A stretch of 38,929 nt of DNA from Nanobdellota archaeon (GCA_021800365.1 JAJYZA010000007.1:1-38929); one strand, 5' to 3'; positions 1-38,929 are shown, counted from the stretch's first letter. The notes: generated from the letters alone by a model not told the origin. Numbers and translations are program-made.

Positions 1-1298
1 CTCTCTACGGCGGAAAGCACCGCATTTCCCCCGGAAAAGCCGGTATCCCTGTAATCCATGCAGGCAAGAACGTCGTTTATGGATTCGTCCTTAGTCTCCT
101 TGAGGATCATTATGGCTTTATCCACTTCATCCTTTTTTACATAAGAAATAATCTCGGGCAGCTTCGACTTATACGATGAATTGAATGAATTCCTCGCCCT
201 GTTGACCGTCTTTTCCCCGACGATGCTGGATGCGAGTCTAAATGCCTCTTCTTCCTTTATCTTATCTCTGGATCCAGTCACCGCAAGCAATAAAAGATAA
301 GGGAGTCTTCTTCTATCAACTTTTATCGTTTTGCTTTCTCCGGCAGAGACGCTGTATTCTTTCCTATTTTTTTCCGTTGACTTATTGACCAGTTCGGCCA
401 GTCCTTTTCTTTCCTCTTCATCGATGGAAAACAGCATAAGCATCTTCTCTATGCCAAGCTCCTTACTTATCCCATAAGTATCGAACACGTATCCGGAGGC
501 CAGTTTCCTATATGTCTTTATGTTCTCCTTAGTAGGCAGAGGCAGAATGCAGCCGGATCTGACGTAAGCAATGACCGAATCAAAGTCCTCTTTCCGGTCT
601 ATCAACTTATCCAGCCCTTTTCGGCTTATGACGATAATATCATTGTAATTCAGTAGATCCAATGCCCGTTTTCCAACCTTGTTTACGATATCACATGCCG
701 CCCTTACGGCATCTTTATCCCTCGTGTTAAAAGCAATATTTCTCAGCCCCCAAGCGACCCCTCTTGCAGTATCTACTTCATATCTTCCAATCGTCCTTGC
801 AGATTCTATGACAGCACTTTTATCCTTCGTGCTAAAAGCAATCTCTCCCAGCCCCCAAGCAACATTGCTAGCAGCCCCTCCTTCATATCTTCCAATCGTC
901 CTTGCAGATTCTATGACAGCACTTTTATCCTTCGTGCTAAAAGCAATCTCTCCCAGCCCCAAAGCGATCCCCCCCGCAACAGCTTCTTCGTATCTTCCAA
1001 TCATCCTTGCGGATTCTATGATAGCATCTTTATCTTTAGCGCCTATTGCAATCTCTCCCAGCCCCAAAGCAACATTGCTAGCAGCTTCTCCTTCATATCT
1101 TCCAATCGTCCTTGCAGATTCTATGATAACATCTTTATCCCCAGTGCCCATTACAATCTCTCCCAGCCTAGAAGCGATTGCCCATGCAATCTTTCTTTCA
1201 TATTTCTCAATCGTCTCTTCGGCAGCAAGCCTTGCGTCGCGTCCAAGTGCGTCTATCGTCAAAATAGAATCTTTTTCAAGAAAAGTCTCAAGCTTCAT
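1..1298 (-). CDS. Repeat-family protein copy 1 (HEAT/ARM-like repeats + conserved C-terminal region), 3' end cut by window
   Basis: The reading frame is open from the ATG at 1298 to the window edge, giving 432 codons. The protein starts MKLETFLEKD, then has five tandem units of about 35 residues (residues 22-196) built on the pattern IESARTIGRYEG...VAWGLGEIA...TKDKD, which predicts pairs of amphipathic helices like HEAT or ARM repeats. The shared C-terminal region begins at residue 197 (AVRAACDIVNKVGK) and runs off the edge near the SGGNAVLSAVE tract. It lacks the longer 43-residue unit found in copies 2 and 3. It differs locally from the other copies, for example SAGESKTIKVDRRRLP where they have SDGGDKMDIDRSKLP. 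No signal peptide or membrane segment is visible, so it is probably cytosolic. Function unknown; helical repeats usually bind proteins or nucleic acid. Confidence 0.85.
   Translation of the reverse strand, partial: MKLETFLEKDSILTIDALGRDARLAAEETIEKYERKIAWAIASRLGEIVMGTGDKDVIIESARTIGRYEGEAASNVALGLGEIAIGAKDKDAIIESARMIGRYEEAVAGGIALGLGEIAFSTKDKSAVIESARTIGRYEGGAASNVAWGLGEIAFSTKDKSAVIESARTIGRYEVDTARGVAWGLRNIAFNTRDKDAVRAACDIVNKVGKRALDLLNYNDIIVISRKGLDKLIDRKEDFDSVIAYVRSGCILPLPTKENIKTYRKLASGYVFDTYGISKELGIEKMLMLFSIDEEERKGLAELVNKSTEKNRKEYSVSAGESKTIKVDRRRLPYLLLLAVTGSRDKIKEEEAFRLASSIVGEKTVNRARNSFNSSYKSKLPEIISYVKKDEVDKAIMILKETKDESINDVLACMDYRDTGFSGGNAVLSAVE
711..1235 (-). repeat. Five tandem 105-bp coding repeats (copy 1)
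   Basis: Five 35-codon units lie head to tail in the N-terminal half of copy 1. At DNA level, near-identical blocks such as GCAGATTCTATGA and TTTATCCTTCGTG recur every 105 bases. The spacing is exact, so gain or loss of a unit keeps the frame. Confidence 0.85.
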
Positions 1299-1317
1299 GA
1301 CCCTTATTGAATACAAT

Positions 1318-1328
1318 TAATATATAAC
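1318..1328 (-). promoter_or_regulatory. TATA box of repeat-family copy 1
   Basis: On the minus strand a TATATA core (1321-1326) ends 22 nt before the ATG at 1298. This spacing places transcription start at or just before the start codon, so the mRNA is probably leaderless. The same geometry recurs in copies 2, 3 and 4. Confidence 0.6.
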
Positions 1329-1343
1329 TCTTTTTTTGCTAAA

Positions 1344-1847
1344 TCATCCTATATACACGTCTTTGTTGTTGCTGGGTTTACTGCTCTTCAAACTGTCCAA
1401 TATTTCCGTAGATAAGGCAGCAGATTCTTTTTCCAACAAAAGTAAAGTCTTTATTGCATCATTATAAATGGAAATCATGGCTTCTCTGTCATAGTCCTCT
1501 TTGAGGATAAGGGCCTGATCTAGATTAAACGTAAGAATATAATATTTTTCCGCGAGGGCGGTGGCCTCTTTTAATTTGTTTCTTTCTTTAAGGCATTTGT
1601 AAGACATCATCTGACCGTAAGATGTCGGCTGCGAAGAGATTGAAGAAAACCACGAAGCCTCATTGGCTGATTTATTTCCCGTTTTCCTAATAAGGAATAA
1701 AAAGAAGCTTTTTTCATCATAAAATATGGGATCTTCGCCTTCCAGTAGCCCGGACATCCAGTAAAAGTATTTTACATCTATAAGCTTCTTTGAGAATTTT
1801 TTGTAATAAGCGTTGAAGTTTTTATACAAGTTTTTCTTATCTGCCAT
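1344..1847 (-). CDS. Hypothetical protein, coupled to cysS
   Basis: This is a 167-residue protein that I do not recognise. It is rich in lysine, tyrosine and phenylalanine, looks largely helical, and shows no membrane segment, signal peptide or metal motif. Its ATG lies inside the last codons of cysS (11-nt overlap), so the two are almost certainly co-transcribed and translationally coupled. The helical pattern is loosely reminiscent of TPR-type folds but no clear repeat can be read. Existence as a gene is likely; function is unknown. Confidence 0.7.
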   Translation of the reverse strand: MADKKNLYKNFNAYYKKFSKKLIDVKYFYWMSGLLEGEDPIFYDEKSFFLFLIRKTGNKSANEASWFSSISSQPTSYGQMMSYKCLKERNKLKEATALAEKYYILTFNLDQALILKEDYDREAMISIYNDAIKTLLLLEKESAALSTEILDSLKSSKPSNNKDVYIG

Positions 1848-7447: not shown

Positions 7448-7595
7448 CTTAATTCTTAAGCAGCGTATACTTAAATCTTATAATGAGTAATTAAAGGAAG
7501 TGAACGTTTAACAAATACGCTAGAAATTCCTCTTTCGAAAGATGTTCGGGTGAATTTCACGGAGTATATCTTCGTGGATTAAACAAAGCCATTAG

Positions 7596-9566
7596 TCATA
7601 TCCTTAAGACATATCCAGAAGCTCCATTTTTATCGGCATCGAGATATCCTTTGGTGTCCAGTTTCATCTTTATCTTTCCCTTCTCCAACCCGATATGTCC
7701 GAGGCAATCCATGAACTTCTTAGGAGTCTCGTTTGTGCCGCCTTCGCCGAACAATATCCTTTTTGCCCCTTTCTCTTTCGCCCTTTCCACCAAGTCCCTG
7801 CGGACTGCATCGAATATCTTAGGCTTCCTGAAGGTCCTGTGTCCCTCGACGGAATCGACCAGAAAAGTCCCATCATCCATGTAGCATATCGCGCTCCCAA
7901 GTGTCTTACCGCCGACGTCGTATCTTACAAGTGTAAACCGCTTGTCCCTGCAATAATCGTATATCCCCTCGTGAAAGTACCTTGGAAGGTATACGCAGGC
8001 GATCTGCACCCCGCTGTCATAATCGAGAGGATCATTGCTCTCTACGGCGGAAAGCACCGCATTTCCCCCCGAAAAGCCAGTATCCCTGTAATCCATGCAG
8101 GCAAGAACGTCGTTTATGGATTCGTCCTTAGTCTCCCTTAGGATCATTATGGCTTTATCCACTTCATCCCTGTTTACATAAGAAATGATCTCAGGCAGCT
8201 TTGACTTATACGATGAATTGAATGAATTCCTCGCTCTGTTGACCGTCTTTTCCCCGACGATGCCAGAGGCGAGTCTAAACGCCTCTTCTTCCTTTATCTT
8301 ATCTCTGGATCCAGTCACCGCAAGCAATAAAAGATAAGGCAGCTTACTTCTGTCTATATCCATCTTGTCGCCTCCATCGGAAATGCTGTATTCTTTCCTA
8401 TTCCTTTCCGTCGACTTATTGACCAGTTCGGCCAGTCCTTTTCTTTTCTCTTCATTGACAGAAAACAGCATAAGCATCTTCTCTATGCCAAGCTCCTTAC
8501 TTATCCCATAAGTATCGGATACGTATCTGTAAGCCAGTTTCCCATATGTCTTTATGTTCTCCCCAGTAGGTAGAGGCAGAATGCAGCCGGATTTGACGTA
8601 AGCCGCTACCGCATCAAAGTTCTCTTTCCGATCTATCAACTTATCCAGCCCTTTTCGGCTTATGACGATAATATCATTGTAATTCAGTAGATCCAATGCC
8701 CGTTTTCCAACCTTATTTACGATACCGCATGCCAATCTCACGGCATCTTTGTCCCCCGCGTCAATCGCAATCTTTCCCAGCCCCCAAGCGACTATCCCAG
8801 CAGCCTCTCCTTCATATCTTCCAATCATCCTTGTAGATTCTATGACGGCATCTTTATCCTTCGTGTTAAAAGCAATCTTTCCCAGCCCCCAAGCGACACG
8901 CATCGCAGTAACTCCTTCATATCTTCCAATCATCCTTGTAGATTCTATGACGGTATCTTTATCCTTAGTGCCCATCGCAATCTCTCCCAGTCCAGAAGCG
9001 ACTTCACCCACAGCAGCCCCCCCATATCTTTCAATCGTCCTTGCAGATTCTATGGTAACGTCTTTATCTTTTGTGTATGCTGCAATATACAATAACTGAG
9101 TCGCGACGTTTGTAGTATTATATTTATCTTTTTTTACCACGTTTATTATCTCGTCCAACGACATTATTCTAGCGGCATTTAGAACGGTGTCTTTATCCTT
9201 AGTGTCCGTCGCAATCTCTCCCAGCCCCCAAGCGACTATCCCAGCAGCCTCTCCTTCATATCTTCCAATCATCCTTGCAGATTCTATGACTGCATCTTTA
9301 TCCCCGGTGTCCGTCGCAATCTCTCCCAGCCCCCAAGCGACGTCACTCGCATAATCTCCCCCATATCTTCCGATTATCCTTGCAGATTCTATGACTGCAT
9401 CTTTATCTTTAGCACCTATTGCAATCACCCTTAGCCCCCGAGCGACCTCCCTCGCAACATTTCCTTCATATTTCCCGATCGTCTCTTCAGCAGCAAGCCT
9501 TGCGTCGCGTCCAAGTGCGTCTAGCGCCAAAATATAATCTTTCTCAAGCAAAGTCTCAAGCTTCAT
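7596..9566 (-). CDS. Repeat-family protein copy 2, complete
   Basis: The start is the ATG at 9566 (MKLETLLEKD), as in every other copy; an in-frame ATG at 9611 would bypass the conserved promoter. The product has 656 residues: a 21-residue leader, seven helical repeat units (22-274; the fourth is a divergent 43-residue unit with IMSLDEIINVVKK), then 382 residues shared with the other copies. In the C-terminal region, SGGNAVLSAVESND is followed by VQIACVYLPR and then a strand-strand-helix-strand-helix pattern (TLVRYDVGGKTLGSAICY, GTFLVDSVEGHR, a long helix, AKRILFGEGG, NETPKKFMDCLG) that resembles a GNAT acetyltransferase fold without a clear glycine-rich CoA loop. Function unknown. Confidence 0.85.
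   Translation of the reverse strand: MKLETLLEKDYILALDALGRDARLAAEETIGKYEGNVAREVARGLRVIAIGAKDKDAVIESARIIGRYGGDYASDVAWGLGEIATDTGDKDAVIESARMIGRYEGEAAGIVAWGLGEIATDTKDKDTVLNAARIMSLDEIINVVKKDKYNTTNVATQLLYIAAYTKDKDVTIESARTIERYGGAAVGEVASGLGEIAMGTKDKDTVIESTRMIGRYEGVTAMRVAWGLGKIAFNTKDKDAVIESTRMIGRYEGEAAGIVAWGLGKIAIDAGDKDAVRLACGIVNKVGKRALDLLNYNDIIVISRKGLDKLIDRKENFDAVAAYVKSGCILPLPTGENIKTYGKLAYRYVSDTYGISKELGIEKMLMLFSVNEEKRKGLAELVNKSTERNRKEYSISDGGDKMDIDRSKLPYLLLLAVTGSRDKIKEEEAFRLASGIVGEKTVNRARNSFNSSYKSKLPEIISYVNRDEVDKAIMILRETKDESINDVLACMDYRDTGFSGGNAVLSAVESNDPLDYDSGVQIACVYLPRYFHEGIYDYCRDKRFTLVRYDVGGKTLGSAICYMDDGTFLVDSVEGHRTFRKPKIFDAVRRDLVERAKEKGAKRILFGEGGTNETPKKFMDCLGHIGLEKGKIKMKLDTKGYLDADKNGASGYVLRI
8745..9503 (-). 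repeat. Seven tandem coding repeats (copy 2)
   Basis: Six units of 105 bases and one of 129 bases (43 codons) lie in tandem. Units 3 and 7 are almost the same at protein level (MIGRYEGEAAGIVAWGLG), as expected if one was copied from the other. Confidence 0.85.
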
Positions 9567-9588
9567 AGTGTTTATTGAATATAATTGG

Positions 9589-9597
9589 TATATAAAG
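9589..9597 (-). promoter_or_regulatory. TATA box of repeat-family copy 2
   Basis: CTTTATATA on the minus strand ends 22 nt before the ATG at 9566. The spacer AATTATATTCAATAAACACT is shared with copies 3 and 4, so the whole core promoter is conserved as a unit. Confidence 0.65.
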
Positions 9598-9734
9598 CTT
9601 TCTATTCTCAAGTAGTAAGTAAAATGTATATATGCGAATAAGTTAAAAGCGAAGTTTTTTATCTATAGTTGAATGATACTATGTCGTTCAATGTGCATTT
9701 GCACATATTTAAAATACGAAAAAGTAGATGTTCT

Positions 9735-14410: not shown

Positions 14411-14432
14411 AGTGTTTATTGAATATAATTGG

Positions 14433-14440: not shown

Positions 14441-14529
14441 CTTTTTTATTCGTTAGTAATGAATAAAGTAGGTACATTTATCCCGATAATTTAGAAGTGG
14501 GATGCTTTAATTTAGTGATTAGATAATAA

Positions 14530-24916: not shown

Positions 24917-25030
24917 ATATAGATTCAAGTAACTGATATGGCTCTTTTTACATAAAATTGAGCAGAAAATCACGATTCTAATCATGAAATAAATGCGACG
25001 GGGGACAGAATGAATATTATGAGGAACGGG
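24917..25030. other. Intergenic stretch before duplicated block B
   Basis: I see no gene or clear structure here. The sequence changes from unique to duplicated at 25031. Confidence 0.4.
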
Positions 25031-25141
25031 GAGTAATTAAAGGAAGTGAACGTTTAACAAATACGTTGGAAATTCCTCTTTCGAAAGATGTTCGGGTAAA
25101 TTTCACGGAGTATATCTTTGTGGATTAAACAAAGCCATTGA

Positions 25142-26878: not shown

Positions 26879-26900
26879 AGTGTTTATTGAATATAATTAG

Positions 26901-26908
26901 TATATAAC
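26901..26908 (-). promoter_or_regulatory. TATA box of repeat-family copy 4
   Basis: TTATATA on the minus strand ends 22 nt before the ATG at 26878. About 50 bases further upstream are also shared with copy 2. Confidence 0.6.
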
Positions 26909-27133
26909 GCTTTTTATTCTCAAGTAGTAAGTAAAATGTATATATGCGAATAAGTTAAAAGCGAAGATCCTTCGCTCCATTTAGCCTGTAGGAAGACCAA
27001 TACGAAAAGGTAGACATGGATTGTAAAGTCTTAAATAAAAGGAAAAAGAAATATTTCTGACTTATAAATTTGACAATGGCCCTTGCGAAATAGGGAGCAA
27101 ATAAAGGACTTTTAAGCAGTCACATTATACTTA

Positions 27134-27141
27134 TTTATAAA
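27134..27141 (+). promoter_or_regulatory. TATA box before nadM
   Basis: TTTATAAA lies just upstream of the element-derived left end. Transcription from it would start near 27165, inside the palindrome, so the nadM leader would consist almost entirely of mobile-element sequence. Confidence 0.45.
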
Positions 27142-27147
27142 GTGTTA

Positions 27148-27242
27148 GCGGGAAAACCCACGATTTAAATCGTGGGATGAAAGCGAACGCAAAAATGGAA
27201 AACATAAATAACAGGAGAGGTAAAATAACAATATGTTGACAG
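27148..27242 (+). mobile_element. Solo left end of the tnpB-type element
   Basis: This stretch matches the left end at 22291-22385: GGAAAACCCAC, a hairpin, GCGAAC, AAAAATGG, AACATAAATA, ATAACAATATG and TGACAG in the same order and spacing. The hairpin here is the perfect 20-base palindrome CCCACGATTTAAATCGTGGG (27157-27176). Homology stops five codons after the element's ATG, where the nadM sequence takes over. No right end is adjacent. Confidence 0.75.
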
Positions 27243-27769
27243 ACAATAACATGCGTGCTCTTTTAGTGGGGAGGTTCCAGCCGTTTCACAATGGCCATCT
27301 CAACCTAGTCGAGAAGATACTTGAAAAAAGCGATTCTATAATCATAGTTATAGGGAGTGCACAGCACTCTTACACCCTAGAGAATCCCTTTACGGCTGGG
27401 GAACGCTTAGAAATGATTTCAGCGGTCTTAAAAGAATCAGTGCACAAAGATTTTTATATAGTGCCAGTGGAAGACGTGGATTCAAATTCTATTTGGGTCT
27501 CACACATAGAGACATTAGTGCCTAAATTTGATGTGATATTTACAAATAATCCGCTTGTTAGAACACTTTTCTTGGATAAAGGATACAAGGTCGAATCGAC
27601 GAGTTTGCATGATCGGAGTGATCTTTCCGGCACAAATATAAGGAAAAAGATGTTAAAAGGTGAACACTGGGAGCAGTTAGTGCCGGTGCAGATTTCAAAG
27701 TACATAAAACAAATCGGTGGCGTAAAAAGGATAGCGATGATTGCAAAGTCAGATAAAGCGACACTTTAG
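27233..27769 (+). CDS. nadM: Nicotinamide/nicotinate mononucleotide adenylyltransferase
   Basis: This archaeal-type adenylyltransferase joins ATP with NMN or NaMN to give NAD or NaAD. The nucleotide-binding motif GRFQPFHNGH is at 13-22 and LSGTNIR at 131-137. Archaeal relatives begin at the Met equivalent to residue 7 (MRALLVGRFQ, ATG at 27251). The upstream ATG at 27233 is the start codon of the tnpB-type left end and has GGAGAGGT about 11 nt before it, so the protein probably carries six extra residues (MLTDNN) from the element. It is the first of five NAD-pathway genes in the next 8 kb. Confidence 0.93.
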   Translation: MLTDNNMRALLVGRFQPFHNGHLNLVEKILEKSDSIIIVIGSAQHSYTLENPFTAGERLEMISAVLKESVHKDFYIVPVEDVDSNSIWVSHIETLVPKFDVIFTNNPLVRTLFLDKGYKVESTSLHDRSDLSGTNIRKKMLKGEHWEQLVPVQISKYIKQIGGVKRIAMIAKSDKATL

Positions 27770-27887
27770 CAAAAACCTCCAATATAAAATGATTTTAAAA
27801 CCAAATATTTTGCCGGGGTGCGCAACAGTAAATTTACATTTCTTCTAGTGGCCCGCGTGGCCAAAGTACAACAAATTTTAAAAAAGA

Positions 27888-27905
27888 TAAGGTATTAATA
27901 CCTTA
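27888..27905. promoter_or_regulatory. 18-bp palindrome, candidate operator of the toxin-antitoxin operon
   Basis: TAAGGTATTAATACCTTA is a perfect inverted repeat ending 16 nt before the antitoxin ATG at 27922, overlapping the expected transcription start. It overlaps a second small palindrome CCTTAAGG (27901-27908). Its position and symmetry fit a dimeric repressor, and the antitoxin has a ribbon-helix-helix-like N-terminus. Confidence 0.6.
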
Positions 27906-27921
27906 AGGGATAATAATTATT

Positions 27922-28434
27922 ATGGAACTAAAAGCTTACATCAATGACGAAGTCGGCAAAAGTTTAAGAGACGGTGCACTAAAACGTTTTGGCTATTTTA
28001 AAGGTTCATTAAGCAAGGCGGTAGAAGAAGCAGTAATTCAATGGTTGAAAACAAATGAGCGTATTAATGAAAGGATACAGAAAATCATGGAGAAAGCTGC
28101 CAACGATCCAGAGGTTATTGCCATATTCGTCTTTGGGAGTTTTGCCGAAAAGAAAACGAATTATAGGGATGTGGATTTGGCGTTCCTATTGGCTAAGGAC
28201 AAAGACGAACTATCAGTACTTTCTAAATATGAAGACTACGAGAATGATCCAAAACTGGACATTTCTTGCCTGAACTCTTTGGCGGTTAATGTAAAAAAAG
28301 AAGTTTTGGACAACGGTACAATGCTGTTCTGCAAAGATAAGTCAAAGCTTTATGCTTTTGCAATGCGCACATTAATGGAATATGAGGAGTTTAAACACGT
28401 CTACGAATTAATGGTTTATGGAAATACTAACTAG
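27922..28434 (+). CDS. mntA: MNT-type antitoxin nucleotidyltransferase with RHH-like N-terminus
   Basis: The 170-residue protein has a minimal nucleotidyltransferase domain: FVFGSFAEKKTNYRDVDLAF (69-88) with Gly72-Ser73 and Asp83/Asp85, the acid pair that binds metal and ATP. In MntA/HepT pairs this enzyme adds AMP to the HEPN toxin and so silences it. The first 45 residues (ELKAYINDEV, then helix, then FKGSLSKAVEEAVIQWLK) look like a ribbon-helix-helix DNA-binding domain, which a minimal MNT protein does not need. The toxin gene overlaps by 17 nt. Confidence 0.8.
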   Translation: MELKAYINDEVGKSLRDGALKRFGYFKGSLSKAVEEAVIQWLKTNERINERIQKIMEKAANDPEVIAIFVFGSFAEKKTNYRDVDLAFLLAKDKDELSVLSKYEDYENDPKLDISCLNSLAVNVKKEVLDNGTMLFCKDKSKLYAFAMRTLMEYEEFKHVYELMVYGNTN

Positions 28435-28855
28435 GTTAGAAGAAAAATTAGCCGACATAAAAGGTTATCTCGGTGAAATCGAGAGCAAGCTTCCTGCATC
28501 ATTAGAAAATTATAGGGCCGCGGATTTCACCCTCAAAAGGGCTACAGAACGGGACCTACAACTCATCAATGATGGCGAGATAGACGTTTTAGCACTCCTA
28601 GTAAAACTTAAGGAGCTGACAATAGCCTCTTCTGAAGAAGGGCTAATAGATAAATTTAATAATCTACTGAGCAGGAAAACACTAAACCACCTACGGGAGT
28701 TTCGTCGCCTCAGAAACATGTTAACGCATGCATACAAGAACGAGGTTTATGATGAAGTCGTCTTTAATTCAGCAAAAAAATCCGTCGATGTGCGCACCTT
28801 TATCAAAGAGGTAGAAAGGATACTTAAGCCTTCGGAGACGGATAAAATCAGATAG
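28418..28855 (+). CDS. hepT: HEPN-domain toxin (HepT/DUF86-like)
   Basis: This 145-residue helical protein has the HEPN ribonuclease motif Rx4HxY as RNMLTHAY (99-106). In known HepT toxins the Arg and His cleave RNA and the Tyr is the residue modified by the partner nucleotidyltransferase. The gene overlaps the end of mntA by 17 nt, which couples translation of toxin to antitoxin. The long central helices (LKRATERDLQLINDGEIDVLA) are typical of DUF86. The pair sits as an insertion between nadM and the nitrilase genes, as is common for mobile toxin-antitoxin modules. Confidence 0.85.
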   Translation: MEILTRLEEKLADIKGYLGEIESKLPASLENYRAADFTLKRATERDLQLINDGEIDVLALLVKLKELTIASSEEGLIDKFNNLLSRKTLNHLREFRRLRNMLTHAYKNEVYDEVVFNSAKKSVDVRTFIKEVERILKPSETDKIR

Positions 28856-28976
28856 CACGCCGCTTTAGCTTCTAGTGCATGTTAAAATTGCGCGCTACAA
28901 ATGCCAAATTAAGCAGAATAAGCGTTATTTATAAGTAGTAATCTATTTATATGCCTTCCAATCATATAATATCAAT

Positions 28977-29756
28977 ATGGTAACTGATAGTTACAAGGTG
29001 GGTCTGATAAGGCTGTTAACGCCAAAAGCGTATATCACCGAAAAGACCAATCTGCAAGCCACGCTAGGATGCATAACCGCAGGGAAAGAATTGGGGTTAG
29101 ATTTGCTCGTAGGCCCGGAATGGGGGCTGATGTTAGGCCAGGATGAAGATGCCGAACTCTCTCCAAAGGACGCCACAAAATTTTATCCTGCAAACCCTTG
29201 GCGGTTGCCATATTCTCCGCGCGAGGCCAGAAAAATAATAAATTTGCTTAAAGACGCTACAAAAGGCAGCGATATGATAGTTATGCCGGGCACGATGATG
29301 ATTTACACATCTGCATTAAAGCTATACAATGTGATGCCAGTATTCAGGGATGGAAAAGTGATATATTCTGTTTTTAAGAATAAGGACGGCTGCAGCACTG
29401 AATATAATTTAGATGGAACACTTAAGTTAGCCTTGCAGGCGCAGGGAAAAAAGAGGGTATCTTCCTTCGAATGCGCCGGAATCAAGTTCGGCGTTGAGAT
29501 ATGTGCTGATCGCGGTTTACTAGCCAGCAGCCTGCCTTCGCGATCTTTAGATATCCAGGTACTGTCTTCTTCGGGAGTGTGCTATACAGAAACCCTCGCC
29601 TTAAAGGAGACTGGATATGTTGTGTGTGCAGATGGCAATACTGCTAGTTCTAACGTAAGAACGGCGACAAATTGGCCAGCAGATGCGCGTCTCAGAATAT
29701 ACGATGAACTGGACGTTTACACGCTTCCAAAGGTTAAAGGCCGATATGTCGGATGA
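28977..29756 (+). CDS. Nitrilase-superfamily (carbon-nitrogen hydrolase) protein 1
   Basis: A 259-residue protein with the Glu-Lys-Cys arrangement of the nitrilase superfamily: VGPEWGL (Glu48), VIYSVFKNKDG (Lys134) and FGVEICADRG (Cys176). Members cut amides or nitriles, or serve as glutaminase domains, for instance in glutamine-dependent NAD synthetase. The protein is slightly shorter than usual (260-300). It is followed by a paralogue whose ATG overlaps its last codons by 11 nt, so the two are coupled. The location inside a NAD gene island is suggestive, since the nadE here lacks a glutaminase domain, but a link is inference. Confidence 0.75.
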   Translation: MVTDSYKVGLIRLLTPKAYITEKTNLQATLGCITAGKELGLDLLVGPEWGLMLGQDEDAELSPKDATKFYPANPWRLPYSPREARKIINLLKDATKGSDMIVMPGTMMIYTSALKLYNVMPVFRDGKVIYSVFKNKDGCSTEYNLDGTLKLALQAQGKKRVSSFECAGIKFGVEICADRGLLASSLPSRSLDIQVLSSSGVCYTETLALKETGYVVCADGNTASSNVRTATNWPADARLRIYDELDVYTLPKVKGRYVG

Positions 29757-30570
29757 AAGTTATTATGTAGGCATAATAAAATTAAATACAGGTTTTAGCC
29801 ATAATAAAGGACATAATACCCGAACAACAATTAAATGCATAAAAGAAGGTGTGAAGCGGGGTTTAGATTTAATTGTAGGGCCCGAGTGGGGTTTAGCATC
29901 TAAATATTCACTGACCGATAAGTTTGCCCCGCGCGATGCAGTAAATCTTTTTGCAGCGGTGTACCCAGATGTACCAAAAACGGCTATTAAAAGGAGCAGT
30001 TTGCCGTATTCTCCGCGCGAGGCCAGAAAACTAATCAATATAATCAAGGACATAACAAAAGGAAGCAATGCAATAGTTATGCCCGGCACTATGATGATTT
30101 ACACAAATGGAAAAAACCTGTATAACGTGATGCCAGTATTCAGGGATGGAAAAGTGATATATTCTGTTTTTAAGAATGAGAACGGCGGTAGTTGTAACTT
30201 TGATTTAGACTGTGCGCTGCACTTATGCGCTCCCGGGCGAGATTCAGAAGACGCGCGCGTATCCACTTTTAAGCAGAATGGCTTACACTTTGGTGTGGAG
30301 ATATGTGCAGACAGGGGCTTATTAAGAACAAAAGTCGCGCCACGGTCATTAGATGTGCAAGTTTTATCCTCCTGTGGCTTGGATGATACCGAAACAGACG
30401 CATTAAAGAACGATGGATACCAAATATGTTCGGATGGCCAGTCTGGGCTTTCTTATGTAAGTACAAAAGACGGTACAGAGCATCTTCCTCCGCTTAATAA
30501 ATCTACCAGCGCGTCTCTAGAAATTTATGGTATTCGTCGGGCAAAAACGGGGAAAATACGCGGGGTCTAA
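29746..30570 (+). CDS. Nitrilase-superfamily protein 2
   Basis: The ATG at 29746 (MSDESYYVGIIKL) is the natural start because it aligns with the first residues of the upstream paralogue; frames read from 29683 lie inside that gene. The 274-residue product keeps Glu47 (VGPEWGL), Lys143 (VIYSVFKNENG) and Cys187 (FGVEICADRG). Some DNA tracts are identical to the first gene (AACGTGATGCCAGTATTCAG region), so the pair arose by recent tandem duplication or is being homogenised. The two may act as a hetero-oligomer. Confidence 0.75.
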   Translation: MSDESYYVGIIKLNTGFSHNKGHNTRTTIKCIKEGVKRGLDLIVGPEWGLASKYSLTDKFAPRDAVNLFAAVYPDVPKTAIKRSSLPYSPREARKLINIIKDITKGSNAIVMPGTMMIYTNGKNLYNVMPVFRDGKVIYSVFKNENGGSCNFDLDCALHLCAPGRDSEDARVSTFKQNGLHFGVEICADRGLLRTKVAPRSLDVQVLSSCGLDDTETDALKNDGYQICSDGQSGLSYVSTKDGTEHLPPLNKSTSASLEIYGIRRAKTGKIRGV

Positions 30571-30605
30571 ATCATGTTAACAAGCCATAAAAAAGGAGAT
30601 ATAAA

Positions 30606-30725
30606 ATTGGAATAATCCGAGTAGACGACTCACAGTTAGAAACATGTGGAACAGACTTTACGCTAAACTGCATAAAATACGGTATAACGTTAGGATTTGA
30701 CCTGAAGTCTGTCACACGACCATGA
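30606..30725 (+). pseudogene. Third nitrilase-like copy, truncated remnant
   Basis: Thirty-five bases after nitrilase 2, a frame without ATG reads IGIIRVDDSQLETCGTDFTL and NCIKYGITLGFDLKSVTRP, then TGA. It aligns with the N-terminus of the other two (VGIIKLNTGF...TTIKCIKEGVKRGLDLIVGPE). A ribosome-binding-like GGAG (30595-30598) survives upstream. The rest of the gene is lost. The promoter of the NAD kinase gene begins right after it. Confidence 0.7.
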
Positions 30726-30788
30726 TTCATGCGCGAAAAACCAGATGAGTCGTTTAATTATAAATAGTTTTGAATACACGTCTTAATT

Positions 30789-31832
30789 ATGAAGTTCGGT
30801 CTGGCTTTTGACAAAAGAGACGAAAAAAGCATGGCGATAGCACGCGAAATAACCAAAATACTAAAAGACTCAAAACAGGATGTCGTACTGGAAAGTAAGG
30901 TACCTGGTTTTCAATGGAAGACAAAAATAGCAAGCATACGTTCAATGAACGTCGACATAGTGATTTTGATAGGGGACAGTTTTAATGTATTAAGAACGTT
31001 TAAGGAGCTGGATCGCATGAAGGTCTTAGTTCTAAGCGTCACTACCTCTTCAACTAATTTTTTCTCAGAAATAACAGCAGACCAGTTCCCAAAGGCGCTG
31101 GAGAAGATACAAAACGGTGATTATACAGTAGAGGAATATTCTAGGTTAGAAGCGAAGGCCGATGGAGCCGAATCATCGATAGCGCTGAACGACGTCGTTA
31201 TAACCGCGGGAAAAAGTGCGACCATAATGTCATACGAGGTGATTATTGACGGTAAATTAATCTTTAGGGACGCTGGTGATGGCGTAATAATATCAACGCC
31301 AATTGGCTCAACCGGTTATTCATCTTCTGCGGGTGGACCGGTTGTGTTCTCGAATGCTAAGGTTTTCATTGTGACTCCCATATCTTCATTGAATCAAAAC
31401 AAACCTTTTGTGGTAAGGGACAGCAGCGATGTGCTGATAAAATCGATACAGTGTCCTACAGGCGTAGAGGTCGTCACAGATGGAAGATTCAGGGCCAAAC
31501 TAAAAGGAGAGGAAGTACTTGTAAATAATGCGGATGCGCCAGCCGAATTTATCAGGTTTAAGGAGTTTAGCAAGAACGTATTTGATAAATTGAAGAAGCG
31601 GATGCCAGAGAATGGTAACTTACCACAGAGTGCGCCTCCATCAGCGAAATTTCTATTTAAGATATTGCAATATGAAGGCGCGCTCACGCAGAAAGAATTG
31701 ATACAGATGAGCGCCATGCCTTCAAGAACGGTCAGATCTGGACTCAGCTATTTACTAAAAAGTGGAATCATTGAGGAACAGCGTGCGCTTCGCGACGCTA
31801 GGTACAGCGTCTATTACATTAAAAGCTCTTGA
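30789..31832 (+). CDS. nadK: NAD kinase fused to a C-terminal winged helix
   Basis: Residues 1-275 are an ATP-NAD kinase that makes NADP. Conserved parts are ALNDVVI (132-138, usually NExxI-like) and DGVIISTPIGSTGYSSSAGGP (164-184). The first motif, usually GGDGT, reads LIGDSFNVL (60-68): the Asp is kept but the flanking glycines are not. Residues 286-345 (FKILQYEGALTQKELIQMSA, MPSRTVRSGLSYLLKSGIIE) look like a MarR/ArsR-type winged helix-turn-helix, a domain NAD kinases normally lack. A TATA box (TTATAAATA) precedes the start. Convergent with pncB. Confidence 0.85.
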   Translation: MKFGLAFDKRDEKSMAIAREITKILKDSKQDVVLESKVPGFQWKTKIASIRSMNVDIVILIGDSFNVLRTFKELDRMKVLVLSVTTSSTNFFSEITADQFPKALEKIQNGDYTVEEYSRLEAKADGAESSIALNDVVITAGKSATIMSYEVIIDGKLIFRDAGDGVIISTPIGSTGYSSSAGGPVVFSNAKVFIVTPISSLNQNKPFVVRDSSDVLIKSIQCPTGVEVVTDGRFRAKLKGEEVLVNNADAPAEFIRFKEFSKNVFDKLKKRMPENGNLPQSAPPSAKFLFKILQYEGALTQKELIQMSAMPSRTVRSGLSYLLKSGIIEEQRALRDARYSVYYIKSS

Positions 31833-31848
31833 TACATGCACTGGTATA

Positions 31849-33285
31849 CTACGTGTTAGTCTGTGCCTTTTCGAGTAGCCTTTTTTTTAGTGAATTTAAT
31901 TCATCACTAATCCTTACCGGATAGGTCTCCGCGCCCCGTAGAACCTTATACTTGTCAGGTAACCTCGCCGTTTCATCTAAGCAAAACTTTCTTATCTCAT
32001 TTATCTCAGGAAACTTGTATATTATCTTTCCGCCCAATACTATCGGTATAAGAAGCGGTTTAGAACCCGGCGGTGCGCCTTCATCAAACAACTTTATTTC
32101 ATCATATGAATATTTATTATCACTATACACCCTGTAAACTTGTTTCTTGCCGGGGAGCGTAGTTTTATCTACATCATTGCTTACTTTTATCTTGGGTATA
32201 GGTTTACCGTTTTTTGTGACCTCGACCAGTTTGTATACGCCGCCGAGTGCGGACACTTCTCCCTTATCTTCCATAGAATCGTAATTTGCCCCGGTTATCA
32301 GCCTTGTGCCGACGCCGAAGCCATCAATCGGTGCACCATTGGAGAGCAGTTCTTCTATCTTGTATTCATCAAGATCGCTACTGACTAAAATTTTAGAGTC
32401 CTTAAAACCGGCGTCGTCCAGAATCTTCCGCACGCCACTGCTCAATTTTAAAAGGTCCCCACTGTCCAATCTTACGCCTTTTAAATCGTAACCCTTCTTT
32501 TTTAATTCTCTGCCAACGATACATGCATTTTTAGCGCCGTTTAATGTGTCATATGTATCTATCAATAAGACCGTATTGTGTGGGAATGATTCCGCGTATT
32601 CTCTGAATGCCTGTAGTTCCGAGTCACGCTCCTGTATAAATTTATGCGGCATCGTTCCTATGTATGGGATACCAAATTTTTTACCGGCAAGCACAAGCGC
32701 ACTGCCGGTAGTGCCCGCGATATAAGCTGCTCTTGAGCCAAGGAGAGCGGCATCTCTTCCATGCGCGCGTCTGGCGCCAAATTCAAGTATCGTCTTTCCC
32801 TTTGCCGCATTCACTATCCTAGACGTCTTTGTTGCTATCAACGTTTGAAAATTCATTACACTTAATATATACGTCTCGAATAACTGCACGTCTATTGAAG
32901 GACCGGTTATACTAAGGATAGGTTCATTCGGAAAAATCGGCGTTCCCTCCGGTACGGCGTATATTTCTCCCCCGAATTTGAAATTTTTGAGATAATCGAG
33001 AAACTCCGCGTTGAAGTCGTTTCCAGAGGTTTTCTCCAGCCATTTACTATCCTCTTCGCTAAGCTTATAATTATTTACGAAATCTATTACCTGTTCGAGG
33101 CCGGCTGCGATCATGTAAGAACCAAGATACTTCGGTACTTTTCTTACAAAGAACGTTTCCGTTATTATCTCATTGTTTGCGCGGTCAAAATCTGCTTTGC
33201 CGCCGGTGAGCTCATAATAATCCAGAAACAGCGCTAGTTCATCTTTACTTATCAAAGCTGGTTCCAGGCCTTTCATATTAGACAT
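31849..33285 (-). CDS. pncB: Nicotinate phosphoribosyltransferase
   Basis: This 478-residue enzyme turns nicotinate and PRPP into nicotinate mononucleotide. Typical segments are GPSIDVQLFETYILSVMNFQ, LEFGARRAHGRDAAL (the phosphate-binding, substrate-site stretch), GTMPHKFIQ (the segment around the active-site His), GVRLDSGDLLKLS and SSDLDEYKIEELL. The size and order match the larger archaeal/bacterial PncB form. The start MSNMKGLEPALISKDELALF is likely; Met4 is an alternative. It is the only NAD island gene on the minus strand and ends 17 bases from the end of nadK. Confidence 0.93.
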   Translation of the reverse strand: MSNMKGLEPALISKDELALFLDYYELTGGKADFDRANNEIITETFFVRKVPKYLGSYMIAAGLEQVIDFVNNYKLSEEDSKWLEKTSGNDFNAEFLDYLKNFKFGGEIYAVPEGTPIFPNEPILSITGPSIDVQLFETYILSVMNFQTLIATKTSRIVNAAKGKTILEFGARRAHGRDAALLGSRAAYIAGTTGSALVLAGKKFGIPYIGTMPHKFIQERDSELQAFREYAESFPHNTVLLIDTYDTLNGAKNACIVGRELKKKGYDLKGVRLDSGDLLKLSSGVRKILDDAGFKDSKILVSSDLDEYKIEELLSNGAPIDGFGVGTRLITGANYDSMEDKGEVSALGGVYKLVEVTKNGKPIPKIKVSNDVDKTTLPGKKQVYRVYSDNKYSYDEIKLFDEGAPPGSKPLLIPIVLGGKIIYKFPEINEIRKFCLDETARLPDKYKVLRGAETYPVRISDELNSLKKRLLEKAQTNT

Positions 33286-33411
33286 TCTTATGTATACGCT
33301 AGCTTAATTTATCCTTGTACTTTGCGGCAAGTTTCTCTTTTGTCTAATTGGTATATACAATATTTGCCTGTAACTCTTTCTATTAATCTACGGTGCATTC
33401 ATAATTAGATT

Positions 33412-33909
33412 ATGAGAAAACCTGTCCTTCGAAGAAAGGAACGGAGACGATTTATGAAAAAACATACCAGATTAGAAGGGATTATAAAAAAGGAGAGCAA
33501 GTTAAATTGGGTAGCAGATTTTTGGCTGAATGTGCTTGAAGGTTTGGGCGGGATTCCTAGAATACACGATTATTCGTATAGTGGTGATCGTCTTGCGCAC
33601 GCCGCCGGTTCTCATCCAGCGGATTATGGGTCTATGAGTGGTATTAATGGCTTTTCTGTGCGGTACAGTTTAAAGCATGACTCTTTTATGACATTACAGA
33701 TATTTTATCAAACGCAAGAAATTTTGACGTTCTCTTTTTATACTAATAATGGGCAATACCGTACTATGTATGATCGCTTTGAAATATCAAAATACGAGAA
33801 CGGTGTGTTGGAGAACGAGCTCACTAAAATGCTTCCCAAAAAAGAAAAAATAATAGTGGGCTTAATTGAGAAGCGACAGCAAAGGGAACACGACGCAGAA
33901 AGAAGGTAA
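33412..33909 (+). CDS. Hypothetical basic protein, possibly truncated by an in-frame stop
   Basis: The 165-residue protein is unrecognised. It has a very basic start (MRKPVLRRKERRRFMKKH), a middle of short strands (FMTLQIFYQTQEILTFSFYT) and a charged helical end (KIIVGLIEKRQQREHDAERR). The TAA stop is directly followed, in the same frame, by an ATG and 19 more codons (MEAAEEELKERMLALGPIS, 33910-33969) that continue the same kind of helix. Either a nonsense change shortened the protein or a tiny second gene follows without a gap. It precedes pncA by 14 bases after that second stop, so probably the same mRNA. Confidence 0.6.
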   Translation: MRKPVLRRKERRRFMKKHTRLEGIIKKESKLNWVADFWLNVLEGLGGIPRIHDYSYSGDRLAHAAGSHPADYGSMSGINGFSVRYSLKHDSFMTLQIFYQTQEILTFSFYTNNGQYRTMYDRFEISKYENGVLENELTKMLPKKEKIIVGLIEKRQQREHDAERR

Positions 33910-33972
33910 ATGGAAGCTGCAGAAGAAGAATTAAAGGAGAGAATGTTGGCTCTGGGGCCAATATCTTAAGTA

Positions 33973-33980
33973 AAGGAGGT
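33973..33980 (+). promoter_or_regulatory. Strong ribosome binding site of pncA
   Basis: AAGGAGGT lies 3 nt before the ATG at 33984, within the typical range for internal genes of archaeal operons. Confidence 0.6.
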
Positions 33981-33983
33981 AAT

Positions 33984-34613
33984 ATGGTAAAAGCTTTGTT
34001 AGTGGTAGATATGTTGAATGACTTCTTGAACAAAGACGTCAATCCACGCGTAAGTTGTCCAAGAGGACTTAATATAGTGCAGAACCTGGTAAAACTTACA
34101 AACTCTGCGCTGGAAAAAGGCATACTTCTAATATACTGTAGTGATGCACATCTTCCTTCAGATTATGAACTGAAGGTATGGGGACCGCACGCCATGCAGG
34201 GAACTAAGGGTAGCGAGATAGTGCCGTGGCTGCCTATAAATAACCTTTATACAATAAAGCGCGGCGAAGGACTAAACGAGGTTTTAGCCCGCAAATCAAA
34301 GGGACCTTTTAATGTAGAAAAAGGGACTTACAGCGGTTTTAGGGACAATGGCGGCATAGATACGGCTTTGGACAAGCTATTGAAGTTAAAAGGCATTGAT
34401 ACCTTGTATATAACCGGTCTCACAACTGGGATATGCGATAGGCATACTTCTGCGGAAGCGTTCTTTAGAGGTTATAATGTAGTCTTGATCGAAGACGCGG
34501 TGGAAGGGTTCACGGCCGAAGAGAACGAGCAGGGAAAGGCGTACATAAAAGCGAACTACGGTGCTAAGGTACTTAACACAAAAGACGCCTTAAAAGAATT
34601 TAATGAAGTCTAG
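33984..34613 (+). CDS. pncA: Nicotinamidase
   Basis: The 209-residue enzyme of the isochorismatase-like family hydrolyses nicotinamide to nicotinate and ammonia. The catalytic triad is visible: Asp9 (LLVVDMLNDF), Lys113 (NVEKGTYSGF) and Cys151 (TGLTTGICDRHTSAEAFFRG). Metal ligands fit Asp54 and His56 (CSDAHLPSD) and His69 (VWGPHAMQGTKGSEI). A short insert precedes the Lys strand (ARKSKGPF). nadE begins 8 bases after the stop, so the two are one operon covering the first and last steps of nicotinamide salvage. Confidence 0.9.
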   Translation: MVKALLVVDMLNDFLNKDVNPRVSCPRGLNIVQNLVKLTNSALEKGILLIYCSDAHLPSDYELKVWGPHAMQGTKGSEIVPWLPINNLYTIKRGEGLNEVLARKSKGPFNVEKGTYSGFRDNGGIDTALDKLLKLKGIDTLYITGLTTGICDRHTSAEAFFRGYNVVLIEDAVEGFTAEENEQGKAYIKANYGAKVLNTKDALKEFNEV

Positions 34614-34621
34614 GGTACCAT

Positions 34622-35443
34622 ATGAATGTCCCTGCAGAGCTAGCGATTGATCCAGAACGGGCGATAAACCACGGCGTCGAATGGGTGAAAGAATATTTTG
34701 CTAGGGCTAGAATAAATACAGCGGTCATAGGGGTTTCTGGAGGCAGCGATTCTGCGTTGACTGCATATATCTGCTGCAAAGCAATTGGGCATGAAAATGT
34801 TAAGGGACTGATCATGCCGCTTGGTGATTCAATGTCTGCTAGCGATATGCGCGATGCCGAAGAACTGTGCGAGACACTAGGGATGGGAAATAGAAAGATA
34901 GACATTGAGAAAATATTCGACGAGATAGCTAAAACTAACAGCTCGAAGAACCAAGATCGAATCGCGATGGCAAACGTAAAAGCTAGAATACGTATGCTAC
35001 TTCTGTACAAAGAAGCAAATGAAAGAAAGGCGATAGTAGCCGGCACAGACGATAGAAGTGAACATGAACTAGGTTACTATACTAAATATGGTGACGGGGG
35101 CGTCGACATAAATGTACCGGAGTACTTATACAAAACACAGGTTAGATCAGTATTGTATCACTTGGGGAGTAAAGAGAATATGAAGATATTTACAAGGATA
35201 GCAGAAAAAGTGCCGTCTCCTCAGTTATGGAAAGGTCACACTGCAGAAGGCGAGCTCGGTATGTCATATGAAGACATAGACAGGATATTCTATTACAAAA
35301 ACGAGGGCGGATTCGGGGATAAGATTGAATCCATAGCAAAAGCAACCGGCATTAAGCCATCCGAAGTGCGTAGAATAATCGATTTTTCGCACTCGAATGC
35401 GCACAAAAATGTACTCCCGCCGGCACCTTCAATATTCATTTAG
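34622..35443 (+). CDS. nadE: NAD synthetase, ammonia-dependent type
   Basis: The 273-residue enzyme activates NaAD with ATP and amidates it to NAD. The PP-loop SGGSDS is at 39-44; the second signature GTDDRSEHELGYYTKYGDGG is present, as is VPEYLYKTQVRSVLYHLG and the late SPQLWKGHTAEGELGMSYEDID. There is no N-terminal nitrilase (glutaminase) domain, so it should use free ammonia, which the neighbouring pncA releases, or ammonia from a separate glutaminase. It follows pncA at 8 bases. Confidence 0.96.
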   Translation: MNVPAELAIDPERAINHGVEWVKEYFARARINTAVIGVSGGSDSALTAYICCKAIGHENVKGLIMPLGDSMSASDMRDAEELCETLGMGNRKIDIEKIFDEIAKTNSSKNQDRIAMANVKARIRMLLLYKEANERKAIVAGTDDRSEHELGYYTKYGDGGVDINVPEYLYKTQVRSVLYHLGSKENMKIFTRIAEKVPSPQLWKGHTAEGELGMSYEDIDRIFYYKNEGGFGDKIESIAKATGIKPSEVRRIIDFSHSNAHKNVLPPAPSIFI

Positions 35444-36285: not shown

Positions 36286-36969
36286 TTATAAGTAATGCTT
36301 CTTTACCAGCTCTTCAAGCAGATTTGCCTGCCATTTTTTTTCCATTGCGGGATTAGCAGCAGCTCTAGCAGCATACTCGGCAGCAGACAAAGCATACCCA
36401 GCAGCATACGTAGTAGACCTAGCAGCATACATAGCAGACCAAGCAGAATCTCCAGCAGGCCAAGGATAATTTGCAGCAGACCAAGCAGAAATTCTATTTT
36501 CTTCAGTAGGTTCTTTCAGCCATTTCTCCGCGGCTTTGATGGCTTCTCTGGGTCGAGCGTCGTCTGGATATTTCCTCTCGAAGTTCGGAAGCACGTGTCT
36601 CGCACAACCGATGGCATATTCCACCGACAGCGGTTTCAGGTCTATCTCCCTTGTAAGCGTCATTTCATTGGCTGCGAATAGTCTTTTCCCACAATAGACC
36701 ACGTCTCGGGCTTCCACCTCGAATAAACGATCGCTTAGGCAAAGATTCTCTACTCGGTGATTATTGAAAACCGAGTATAGATCAGATGATGCATGGAAAC
36801 CTCTAAAGCCAGCTATGACTTCGCCGTCATATGTGAGTGCGACGCCGGGAGTCCATTGTGGCCGGTCTCCTTCAAAGCTTCTAAGGTCTCCGGATACGAA
36901 TTTATAACCCGTTGTTGTATTTTGTTTTCTGAATAGTATCTCTGATAGTCTTCTAATCATTTCTTTCAT
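36286..36969 (-). CDS. DUF7666-like domain joined to an Imm5-like alanine-rich immunity domain
   Basis: The first half (about 20-110) has the pattern GYKFVSGDLRS...YDGEVIAGFRGFHASSDLYSVFNN...VEARDVVYCGKRLFAANEM, like phage-associated DUF7666 domains. The second half (115-227) has ARHVLPNFERKYPDDARPRE followed by AIKAAEKWL and runs of AWSAA/AARSTTYAA/AEYAARAA, which resembles putative immunity proteins of the Imm5 type. Such proteins protect against polymorphic toxins in bacteria. A strong AGGAGGT ribosome binding site lies 9 nt before the ATG. No toxin gene is adjacent. The assignment is by eye; acquisition from a phage or bacterium is plausible. Confidence 0.6.
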   Translation of the reverse strand: MKEMIRRLSEILFRKQNTTTGYKFVSGDLRSFEGDRPQWTPGVALTYDGEVIAGFRGFHASSDLYSVFNNHRVENLCLSDRLFEVEARDVVYCGKRLFAANEMTLTREIDLKPLSVEYAIGCARHVLPNFERKYPDDARPREAIKAAEKWLKEPTEENRISAWSAANYPWPAGDSAWSAMYAARSTTYAAGYALSAAEYAARAAANPAMEKKWQANLLEELVKKHYL

Positions 36970-37338: not shown

Positions 37339-38361
37339 TTAAATTTTCCCGGCAATCTCTTTGCCGACTTCAGAGCACTTTGCCGTCCCACCCAGATCAT
37401 ATGTGAGAACCTTTCCTTCTCTCAGCACCGACTCGACGGCCACCTGTATGGCATTTGCGGCTTTATCGTATCCCATCCATTCAAACATCATCTTGACTGA
37501 AAGTATAGTCGCTATTGGATTCACTTTATCCATTCCAGTATACTTTGGAGCTGAACCGTGTATCGGCTCGAACATCGCATAATCTTTTCCAATATTTGCT
37601 GCCGGGCCAACTCCAATACCCCCGACGGTCTCAGCAGCTTCATCAGAAATTATGTCCCCGAATAAGTTTTCCGTTACTATAACATCATAAGTCTCCGGTT
37701 TACTTATCAACCACTGCGTCATCGCATCGACATGGACATCGTCTGCCCTTATTTTCGGATGTTTTCTACTTTCGGTATAGAAAACTTCTTTAAACAATCC
37801 ATCAGATGCCTTTAAGATATTGGCTTTATGGACAAGAGTAACATGTCCTTTTCTTTTTTTTGCCAGATCAAAGGCGAACCTGCATATCCTTTCGCATGCG
37901 CCCCGGGTTATCAGGCGTATCCCTATCGCCGTGTTTTTATCGACAGAAAAATCAAGGCCAGCATACAACCCCTCTGTATTTTCGCGCACAATGACTAGAT
38001 CTATGCCGGGTTTTATGCTTTTTACATTCGGTAATGCCTTTGAAGGCCTTACGTTTGCATATAAATCGAACATCTCCCTTATTTTAACTGCAAGACTGCT
38101 CAAAGAACTAGCCCCTTCCGGTGTCGTTGCAGGACCTTTTATCACACAGTCACTATTTTTCATCAGAGTCACCGTTTCTTCCGGCAGATTCGTACCATAT
38201 TTCTCTACGCAGTGTAATCCCCCCTCGCCAAATTTGTAGGTTAGGTTTATTTTAAATCGTTCTTTTGTAGCGTCTATGACCGGAAGAGATGCATTTATTA
38301 CATCTTCACCTATCCCATCACCTTTTATTATCGCTATTTTCCAGCCAGATTTAGAAACCAT
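37339..38361 (-). CDS. icd: Isocitrate dehydrogenase-type decarboxylating dehydrogenase
   Basis: The 340-residue enzyme of the isocitrate/isopropylmalate dehydrogenase family should oxidise and decarboxylate a 2-hydroxy acid, most likely isocitrate to 2-oxoglutarate. Key parts are KGDGIGED (13-20), FDLYANVRP (98-106), RENTEGLY (126-133) with Tyr133, HKANILK with Lys179, and NLFGDIISDEA with Asp236 and Asp240. HGSAPKY (268-274) and Tyr321 match the residues that bind the NADP phosphate in the E. coli enzyme. The substrate-recognition stretch is SSLAVKIREM; where E. coli has SLN, Asn is replaced by Ala91, so another acid cannot be excluded. Confidence 0.85.
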   Translation of the reverse strand: MVSKSGWKIAIIKGDGIGEDVINASLPVIDATKERFKINLTYKFGEGGLHCVEKYGTNLPEETVTLMKNSDCVIKGPATTPEGASSLSSLAVKIREMFDLYANVRPSKALPNVKSIKPGIDLVIVRENTEGLYAGLDFSVDKNTAIGIRLITRGACERICRFAFDLAKKRKGHVTLVHKANILKASDGLFKEVFYTESRKHPKIRADDVHVDAMTQWLISKPETYDVIVTENLFGDIISDEAAETVGGIGVGPAANIGKDYAMFEPIHGSAPKYTGMDKVNPIATILSVKMMFEWMGYDKAANAIQVAVESVLREGKVLTYDLGGTAKCSEVGKEIAGKI

Positions 38362-38477
38362 AATCTAATTAAGCCGGTTTAAAATAAAAAGCTGTGTATT
38401 GGGAAAAACTCCAGAGCATCCGATGACAGCATAGACAGTTTGAATAAAACCAGAATAAAATAAAGGCTTATTTGGCA

Positions 38478-38527
38478 GTTGCGCCCCTGGCTGGAAGCCC
38501 ATGAATTCATTCATGGGGGGATGTCAC
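38478..38527 (+). mobile_element. Solo right end of the tnpB-type element
   Basis: GCTGGAAGCCCATGAATTCA, then TTCATGGGGGGATGTCAC, matches the right end at 22637-22673. The hairpin CCCATGAA-TTCA-TTCATGGG (38498-38517) has a perfect 8-bp stem. Just before it the frame LAVAPLAGSP followed by TGA keeps the last codons of a TnpB protein. No left end or tnpB body is nearby. Confidence 0.7.
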
Positions 38528-38578
38528 AGGCATCAAACGCACACCTTTTTCTGTGCGTAGGCTTTTGTATGTAGCCTT

Positions 38579-38929
38579 TTATATTTTCAGTATATATCCT
38601 CTCGCTTTGTCTTCATCGGCTTCGAGATATCCTTCAGTGTCCAGTTTCATCTTTATCTTTCCCTTCTCCAACCCGAGTTTTCCAAGGTACTCCATGAACT
38701 TCTTAGGAGTCTCGTTTGTGCCGCCTTTGCTGAACAATATCCTTTTTGCTCCTTTCTCTTTCGCCCTTTCCACCAAGTCCCTGCGGACCGCATCGAATAT
38801 CCTAGGCTTCCTGAAGGTCCTGTGTCCCTCGACTGAATCGACCAGAAAAGTCCCATCATCCATGTAGCATATCGCGCTTCCTAGTGTCTTGCCTCCGATA
38901 TCGTATCTTACCAGCGTGAATCTATTATC
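38579..38929 (-). CDS. Repeat-family protein copy 5, C-terminal end only (5' part outside window)
   Basis: The last 116 residues of the common C-terminal region are visible, from the RFTLVRYDIGGKTLGS equivalent at the right edge to EDKARGYILKI. It carries the FSKGGTNETPKKFMEYLGK tract found otherwise only in copy 4. The number of helical units cannot be known. The sequence after its stop is unlike that of the other copies; the solo element right end lies 50 bases beyond. Confidence 0.85.
   Translation of the reverse strand, partial: DNRFTLVRYDIGGKTLGSAICYMDDGTFLVDSVEGHRTFRKPRIFDAVRRDLVERAKEKGAKRILFSKGGTNETPKKFMEYLGKLGLEKGKIKMKLDTEGYLEADEDKARGYILKI

Follow-up and report, generated by a model that had tools for sequence, protein, structure and literature searches.

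A multi-copy archaeal protein family joining a diversified helical-repeat arm to a constant C-terminal module with a predicted GNAT fold

The DNA analysed here (the window) covers contig C30 from end to end, 38,929 bases from a Nanobdellota archaeon (GCA_021800365.1, JAJYZA010000007.1), a Parvarchaeota-type DPANN genome of 898,414 bases in 30 contigs that is 98.4% complete. It carries five copies, all on the minus strand, of a gene whose product joins an N-terminal arm of helical repeats to a constant C-terminal module (Table 1). An earlier note, made from the sequence of the window alone, had described five same-strand copies occupying about a fifth of it and sharing a C-terminal region of 382 residues. 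The copies were found exactly where that note had placed them; they amount to approximately 7.4 kb (19% of the bases), and the shared region is indeed exactly 382 residues long, with 89-93% protein identity among the three full copies. Repeat finding gave C-terminal DNA identities of 85-95% between copies, together with in-register repeat units of 105 nt (35 amino acids).

Table 1. Family copies, putative promoter regions and shared flank in the window.
Feature	Position	Strand	Details
Copy 1	1-1298	-	3' end cut by contig end; arm 711-1298; first 235 residues of module 3-710
Copy 2	7596-9566	-	656 aa from ATG; repeat arm 8745-9566; C-terminal module 7596-8744
Copy 3	12335-14410	-	691 aa; repeat arm 13484-14410; C-terminal module 12335-13483; predicted GNAT-fold domain 12335-12802; module modelled
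Copy 4	25142-26878	-	578 aa; repeat arm 26291-26878; C-terminal module 25142-26290; whole protein modelled
Copy 5	38579-38929	-	116 aa, the end of the predicted GNAT-fold domain; 5' end cut by contig end
Copy 1 promoter region	1299-1373	-	TATA-like TTATATAT about 30 nt before ATG
Copy 2 promoter region	9567-9641	-	TTTATATA about 30 nt before ATG; conserved with copies 3 and 4 and other contigs
Copy 3 promoter region	14411-14485	-
Copy 4 promoter region	26879-26953	-	near-identical to promoter of the contig C29 copy
3' flank common to copies 2 and 4 only	7485-7595	-	about 110 bp; counterpart 25031-25141

Each copy has its own conserved putative promoter, and apart from this stretch and the 3' flank common to copies 2 and 4 the flanks differ. 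These unrelated flanks show the copies to be distinct genes, as opposed to a single gene that entered the assembly twice. No partner gene recurs among the copies in the window, as had been claimed.

Across the genome, nine N-terminal and ten C-terminal ends were counted, giving at least ten copies of about 2 kb each, or some 2% of the genome. Every copy outside the window is cut by a contig end (C13, C29 at both ends, C24, C18, C12, C15, C3, C27, C16 and C21), and 13 of the 60 contig ends, the two of C30 included, lie inside copies. Two groups were distinguished in a tree of the C-terminal modules, one uniting the window copies with those of C12, C13, C18 and C3, nearest to which is one protein of genome G022, and the other comprising the copies of C24, C15 and the start of C29, the nearest relatives of which are proteins of G022, G003 and G014. 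The copy at the end of C29 (locus L006) bears the promoter and N-terminus of group one and the repeats and C-terminus of group two, and is either a natural chimera produced by recombination within the repeats or a false assembly join. The ratio of nonsynonymous to synonymous substitution rates (dN/dS) in the module is 0.17-0.26 between copies, which indicates purifying selection on this part of the protein; the value for the partial copy 1, out of alignment by one codon, was set aside.

The orientation shared by the copies is real (all five in the window, both on C29 and, counting fragments, all three on one contig of G015), but the chance of 1 in 16 on which the earlier note had called it unexpected is weak evidence and carries no functional weight. 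Same-strand tandem pairs were also observed in the relatives L076 and L079, and the shared orientation is therefore probably due to tandem duplication.

Two-helix repeats, each 35 or 43 residues long, build up the arm as an alpha solenoid, with roughly four to eight units per window copy; tandem two-helix units of about 35 residues are also the hallmark of HEAT, ARM, TPR and PPR repeats. In the structural model the 35-residue unit has a short helix at positions 2-12 (helix A) and a long one (helix B) at positions 17-34. Its consensus is DKDxVIESARTIGRYEGxxAxxVAxxLxxIAxxTK, of which DK...IES.R.I.RYEG..A..VA..L..IA..T forms a near-invariant scaffold, helix-A residues K2, R10 and R14 being invariant. 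A codon-by-codon comparison of 33 aligned 35-residue units from seven copies in the genome revealed eight hypervariable positions (18, 19, 21, 22, 25, 29, 32 and 33), which cluster on a single face of helix B (p = 0.0009) and are enriched in E, G, D, W, T, R, N, S and Y. At these positions the ratio of nonsynonymous to synonymous differences (pN/pS) is 1.12 (bootstrap 0.97-1.32), compared with 0.31 (0.26-0.39) at the remaining positions. As pS is comparable at the two sets of positions (0.44 at the eight, 0.37 elsewhere), the variability is not a local mutation-rate effect. In other lineages the entropy profile is the same (Spearman 0.60-0.72, on small samples). On the arm, every Pfam and NCBIfam repeat model stays below its cut-off, and the Foldseek matches to it in the PDB are designed helical-repeat proteins. 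Diversification driven by a reverse transcriptase, as in diversity-generating retroelements, was also considered and rejected, there being no PF00078 match in the window's genome (G000) with a control that was positive in 3 of 14 genomes.

AlphaFold models were of high predicted local distance difference test score (pLDDT), 92.7 for the whole of copy 4 (578 residues) and 92.2 for the module of copy 3, and place a helical middle domain and then a mixed alpha/beta C-terminal domain behind the two-helix units; this architecture is well supported. The best Foldseek matches of the C-terminal domain in the PDB are GNATs, archaeal Ard1 and RimI among them (probability 1.00, best E-value 1.1e-3), and the top match in BFVD is a GNAT as well (E-value 6.4e-4). 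With high confidence, the last 150 or so residues are thus predicted to adopt the GNAT (acetyltransferase) fold, a mixed sheet with alpha3 following strand 4. All GNAT models of Pfam stay below their cut-offs; PF13480 scores about 15 bits in one window copy (cut-off 22), and PF00583 gives sub-cut-off matches in 7 of 24 members (best E-value 0.0017). The module has an invariant signature of its own (C, Y, VDS.E), and the residues invariant in the widest alignment, in module numbering C250, Y264, A285, I286, D297, S298, E300, F344, Y367 and E369, form a pattern such as would be expected of a functional cleft. R306 and K307 are invariant in the window-type family.

A narrow profile recovered no relatives and a wider one 33 loci. 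Among the 55 genomes searched, G000 included, the module profile matched 19, all in the taxonomic family of the window, namely 15 of 27 congeneric genomes and three of four other genomes of that family, but no match came from the 23 genomes of the class that lie beyond this family; wider profiles extend to other taxonomic families of the class. Named records with relatives are mostly metagenome-assembled genomes labelled 'Nanoarchaeota' and 'Candidatus Parvarchaeota', with scarcer ones labelled Micrarchaeota, Aenigmatarchaeota, Nanohaloarchaea and Rehaiarchaeum. The occurrence in related archaea and the expansion within the lineage, for which the earlier note had called for a profile search, are thereby supported. 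The important role that it had read from the number of copies is not borne out in the sense of an essential one, given the patchy distribution and the absence of the family from two congeneric genomes that are 90-91% complete.

The same module was also found behind other arms. Homologous modules occur with 46-residue helical repeats in G078 and G359 (hhalign E-value 1.3e-15 over 359 columns), with another helical repeat bearing a TGIxP motif in G012 and G011, which belong to the window's own genus (9.1e-13, 250 columns), and with a bactofilin-like beta-helix, just under the Pfam cut-off, in G059 (2.6e-9, 123 columns). One pair of arms was compared directly, and no similarity was detectable between that of the window and the TGIxP type. 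Within the genus, the TGIxP type is the sole one in G011 and G012, and the 35-residue type the sole one in the remaining carriers, with one weak match besides in G004. A PPR identity of the TGIxP arms, plausible by eye, was not retained for want of Pfam support, and a match in G258 was dropped as too weak. By eye, a protein of G312 seems to carry a second, classical GNAT after the module. On contig C4 of G334 (L186) lie two neighbouring same-strand module proteins of about 1000 residues, one of which has an in-frame TGA in the matched part.

Nothing in Pfam, NCBIfam, PHROGs or PADLOC names the copies above cut-off. PADLOC gave isolated weak matches in one member each, matches such as that to HP1 Orf24 were set aside as chance, and searches of PDB sequences with a single protein and with the profile yielded nothing usable. 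The full texts reached by the literature searches and the lineage papers PMC10134863, PMC5864196 and PMC7779479 make no mention of the family, subscription papers being mostly outside their scope. Of the earlier suggestion that no known family combines these parts, the absence of library annotation stands, but the C-terminal region is not wholly unfamiliar, as structure prediction finds in it a GNAT fold behind a helical middle domain. With no library model over cut-off and relatives in independent assemblies, the family is very probably neither a known annotated one nor an artefact of assembly.

Exchangeable arms on a constant module, the helical ones variable on a single face, give the protein the build of a recognition factor whose effector is fixed. 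At about even odds (roughly 0.5), the family is a lineage-expanded set of cytoplasmic recognition proteins, with a conserved acyltransferase-like module that is brought to different partners by arms both exchangeable and diversifying. The N-terminal solenoid would serve as a modular binding arm, the presumably exposed face of its second helix being diversified between repeats, copies and species, and would deliver the helical middle domain and the atypical GNAT-fold domain to different macromolecules, among which proteins are the likeliest. The module may then act on the bound partner, for which transfer of an acyl group, by analogy with NatA, would be the natural guess from the predicted fold. 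The copies would multiply through duplication and recombine within the repeats, each with its own promoter. We infer protein partners and acyl transfer, and the partners might be of viral, host or own origin. Recognition of variable partners, one of the roles proposed in the earlier note, fits a repeat arm with variable positions on one helix face. No signal peptide or transmembrane segment was evident by eye in the translations (no predictor was run), so that an intracellular role is mildly favoured.

Several points weigh against this interpretation. The eight variable positions had been chosen by entropy, and a pN/pS near 1 also fits relaxed constraint, from which it does not by itself separate diversifying selection. 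The invariance of K2, R10 and R14 would still allow helix A to contact nucleic acid. The E-values of the Foldseek matches are moderate, and the canonical acetyl-CoA loop [QR]xxGx[GA] after strand 4 is absent from all 30 sequences, which have RTFRKP or other residues instead; the module may therefore use a donor other than acetyl-CoA, or may lack enzymatic activity altogether.

Other explanations differ mainly in what the arms would bind. Binding of nucleic acid, as by PPR, OPR or TALE proteins, together with action of the GNAT-like domain on RNA or aminoacyl-tRNA, would suit the 35-residue two-helix units, the invariant residues of helix A and a non-canonical loop whose invariant R306 and K307 could bind phosphate. 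However, no PPR model matches over cut-off, the net charge of the arm is negative (-3 to -14), and eight positions vary per unit instead of one or two; charge and number of variable positions together favour protein partners, and this explanation is improbable. In an intracellular defence role the arms would sense proteins of phages or mobile elements and the module would modify these or a cell component, like other repeat-sensor and effector defence proteins. The patchy distribution, the varying copy number, the diversifying arms, the combination of an exchangeable sensor with a constant effector and the lack of a signal peptide evident by eye agree with it, but no PADLOC family matches at a useful level, the copies are scattered among metabolic genes, and defence genes do not cluster with them despite a HepT/MNT-type pair and an Imm5-like gene in the window. 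Such a role is possible but doubtful.

Host-associated microbes commonly have repeat families that are expanded and change fast, which lends some credit to the proposal that the proteins act on the host archaeon of an episymbiont, as effectors or interaction factors whose arms track host proteins. It accords with the host-dependence of DPANN archaea of this lineage, as described in PMC10134863. The translations, in which no signal peptide or transmembrane segment was seen by eye, and the genes adjoining the copies, which include no secretion partner, speak against it, and it seems rather unlikely. Defence and interaction with a host cell, both raised in the earlier note, each fit the patchy distribution, and the evidence does not separate the two. 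A mobile or selfish gene that spreads together with its promoter, or else an artefact in the sequence or its assembly, is very improbable and largely refuted. In favour of it, the copies comprise promoter and gene and lie among unrelated genes, and 13 of the 60 contig ends fall inside them. However, there are no inverted repeats of 30 bp or more and no transposase in or beside the copies, the flanking genes being metabolic or of no known function. No viral, phage or plasmid relatives were found in viral contigs with four profiles or by tblastn against phages and plasmids. The module is under purifying selection, and one locus is syntenic in three genomes. For recognition proteins with a fixed effector, the widest formulation would be a new recognise-and-modify system of DPANN archaea, with one effector module and interchangeable arms (at least two helical types, which diversify on a binding face, and a beta-helix) as a repertoire of innate sensors or host-directed modifiers; this is put forward only tentatively.

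Around the relatives only two kinds of neighbour recur, pilin-like genes (seven loci) and one syntenic block in three genomes. The pilin-like genes (SALEYMMTYGWAILIIVIV) lie near copies in L057, L065, L067, L071, L075 and L078, and several have long, extracellular-looking extensions. In the window, a cluster of NAD-related genes at 23990-35443 encodes a nucleoside hydrolase, a nucleotidylyltransferase, NAD kinase, nicotinate phosphoribosyltransferase and NAD synthase, the last three of which also neighbour a family copy in L067. At 27922-28855, nucleotidyltransferase and HepT-like genes overlap in the arrangement of an MNT/HEPN toxin-antitoxin pair, and a gene at 36286-36969, near copy 5, has matches to Imm5-like, DUF6931 and DUF7666 models. 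Two adjacent paralogues at 28977-30570 are 82% identical over 209 nt, and their relative in L057 reads like a nitrilase. Short dispersed repeats outside the family were also observed, at 22637-22681 and 38490-38535 (46 bp, 91%) and at 22273-22385 and 27130-27242 (113 bp, 79%).

Ultra-small archaea have few non-core genes, yet at least ten diversified copies of a protein unnamed in the libraries are kept here. Should the arm and module act as proposed, they would form a naturally occurring collection of modular archaeal binders that share a single fixed effector, and intracellular recognition in DPANN archaea would become directly testable. The module profile is a search tool for an unannotated domain family across DPANN, and the family copies show why assemblies of this lineage break.

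Among known systems, the multi-copy ankyrin and leucine-rich-repeat proteins of host-associated microbes are likewise lineage-expanded and patchy, with variable binding faces; the window family differs in its repeat, in the lack of a secretion signal evident by eye and in its constant GNAT-like module. With HEAT, ARM, TPR and PPR solenoids it shares stacked two-helix units of about 35 residues, although no curated repeat model exceeds its cut-off and the repeat has its own consensus. The GNAT superfamily (PF00583 / PF13480) is approached in the predicted fold of the last 150 or so residues, with a Foldseek probability of 1.00 and weak sub-cut-off Pfam matches, but the window family does without [QR]xxGx[GA], has its own C..Y..VDS.E signature and carries a helical middle domain in front. 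NatA has a solenoid subunit, Naa15, which presents substrates to its GNAT subunit, Naa10. Whereas NatA-type complexes are not single-chain proteins, the window family is, and it has many diversified copies and a non-canonical cofactor loop; the likeness, a helical-repeat arm together with a GNAT domain, is one of how the parts may work.

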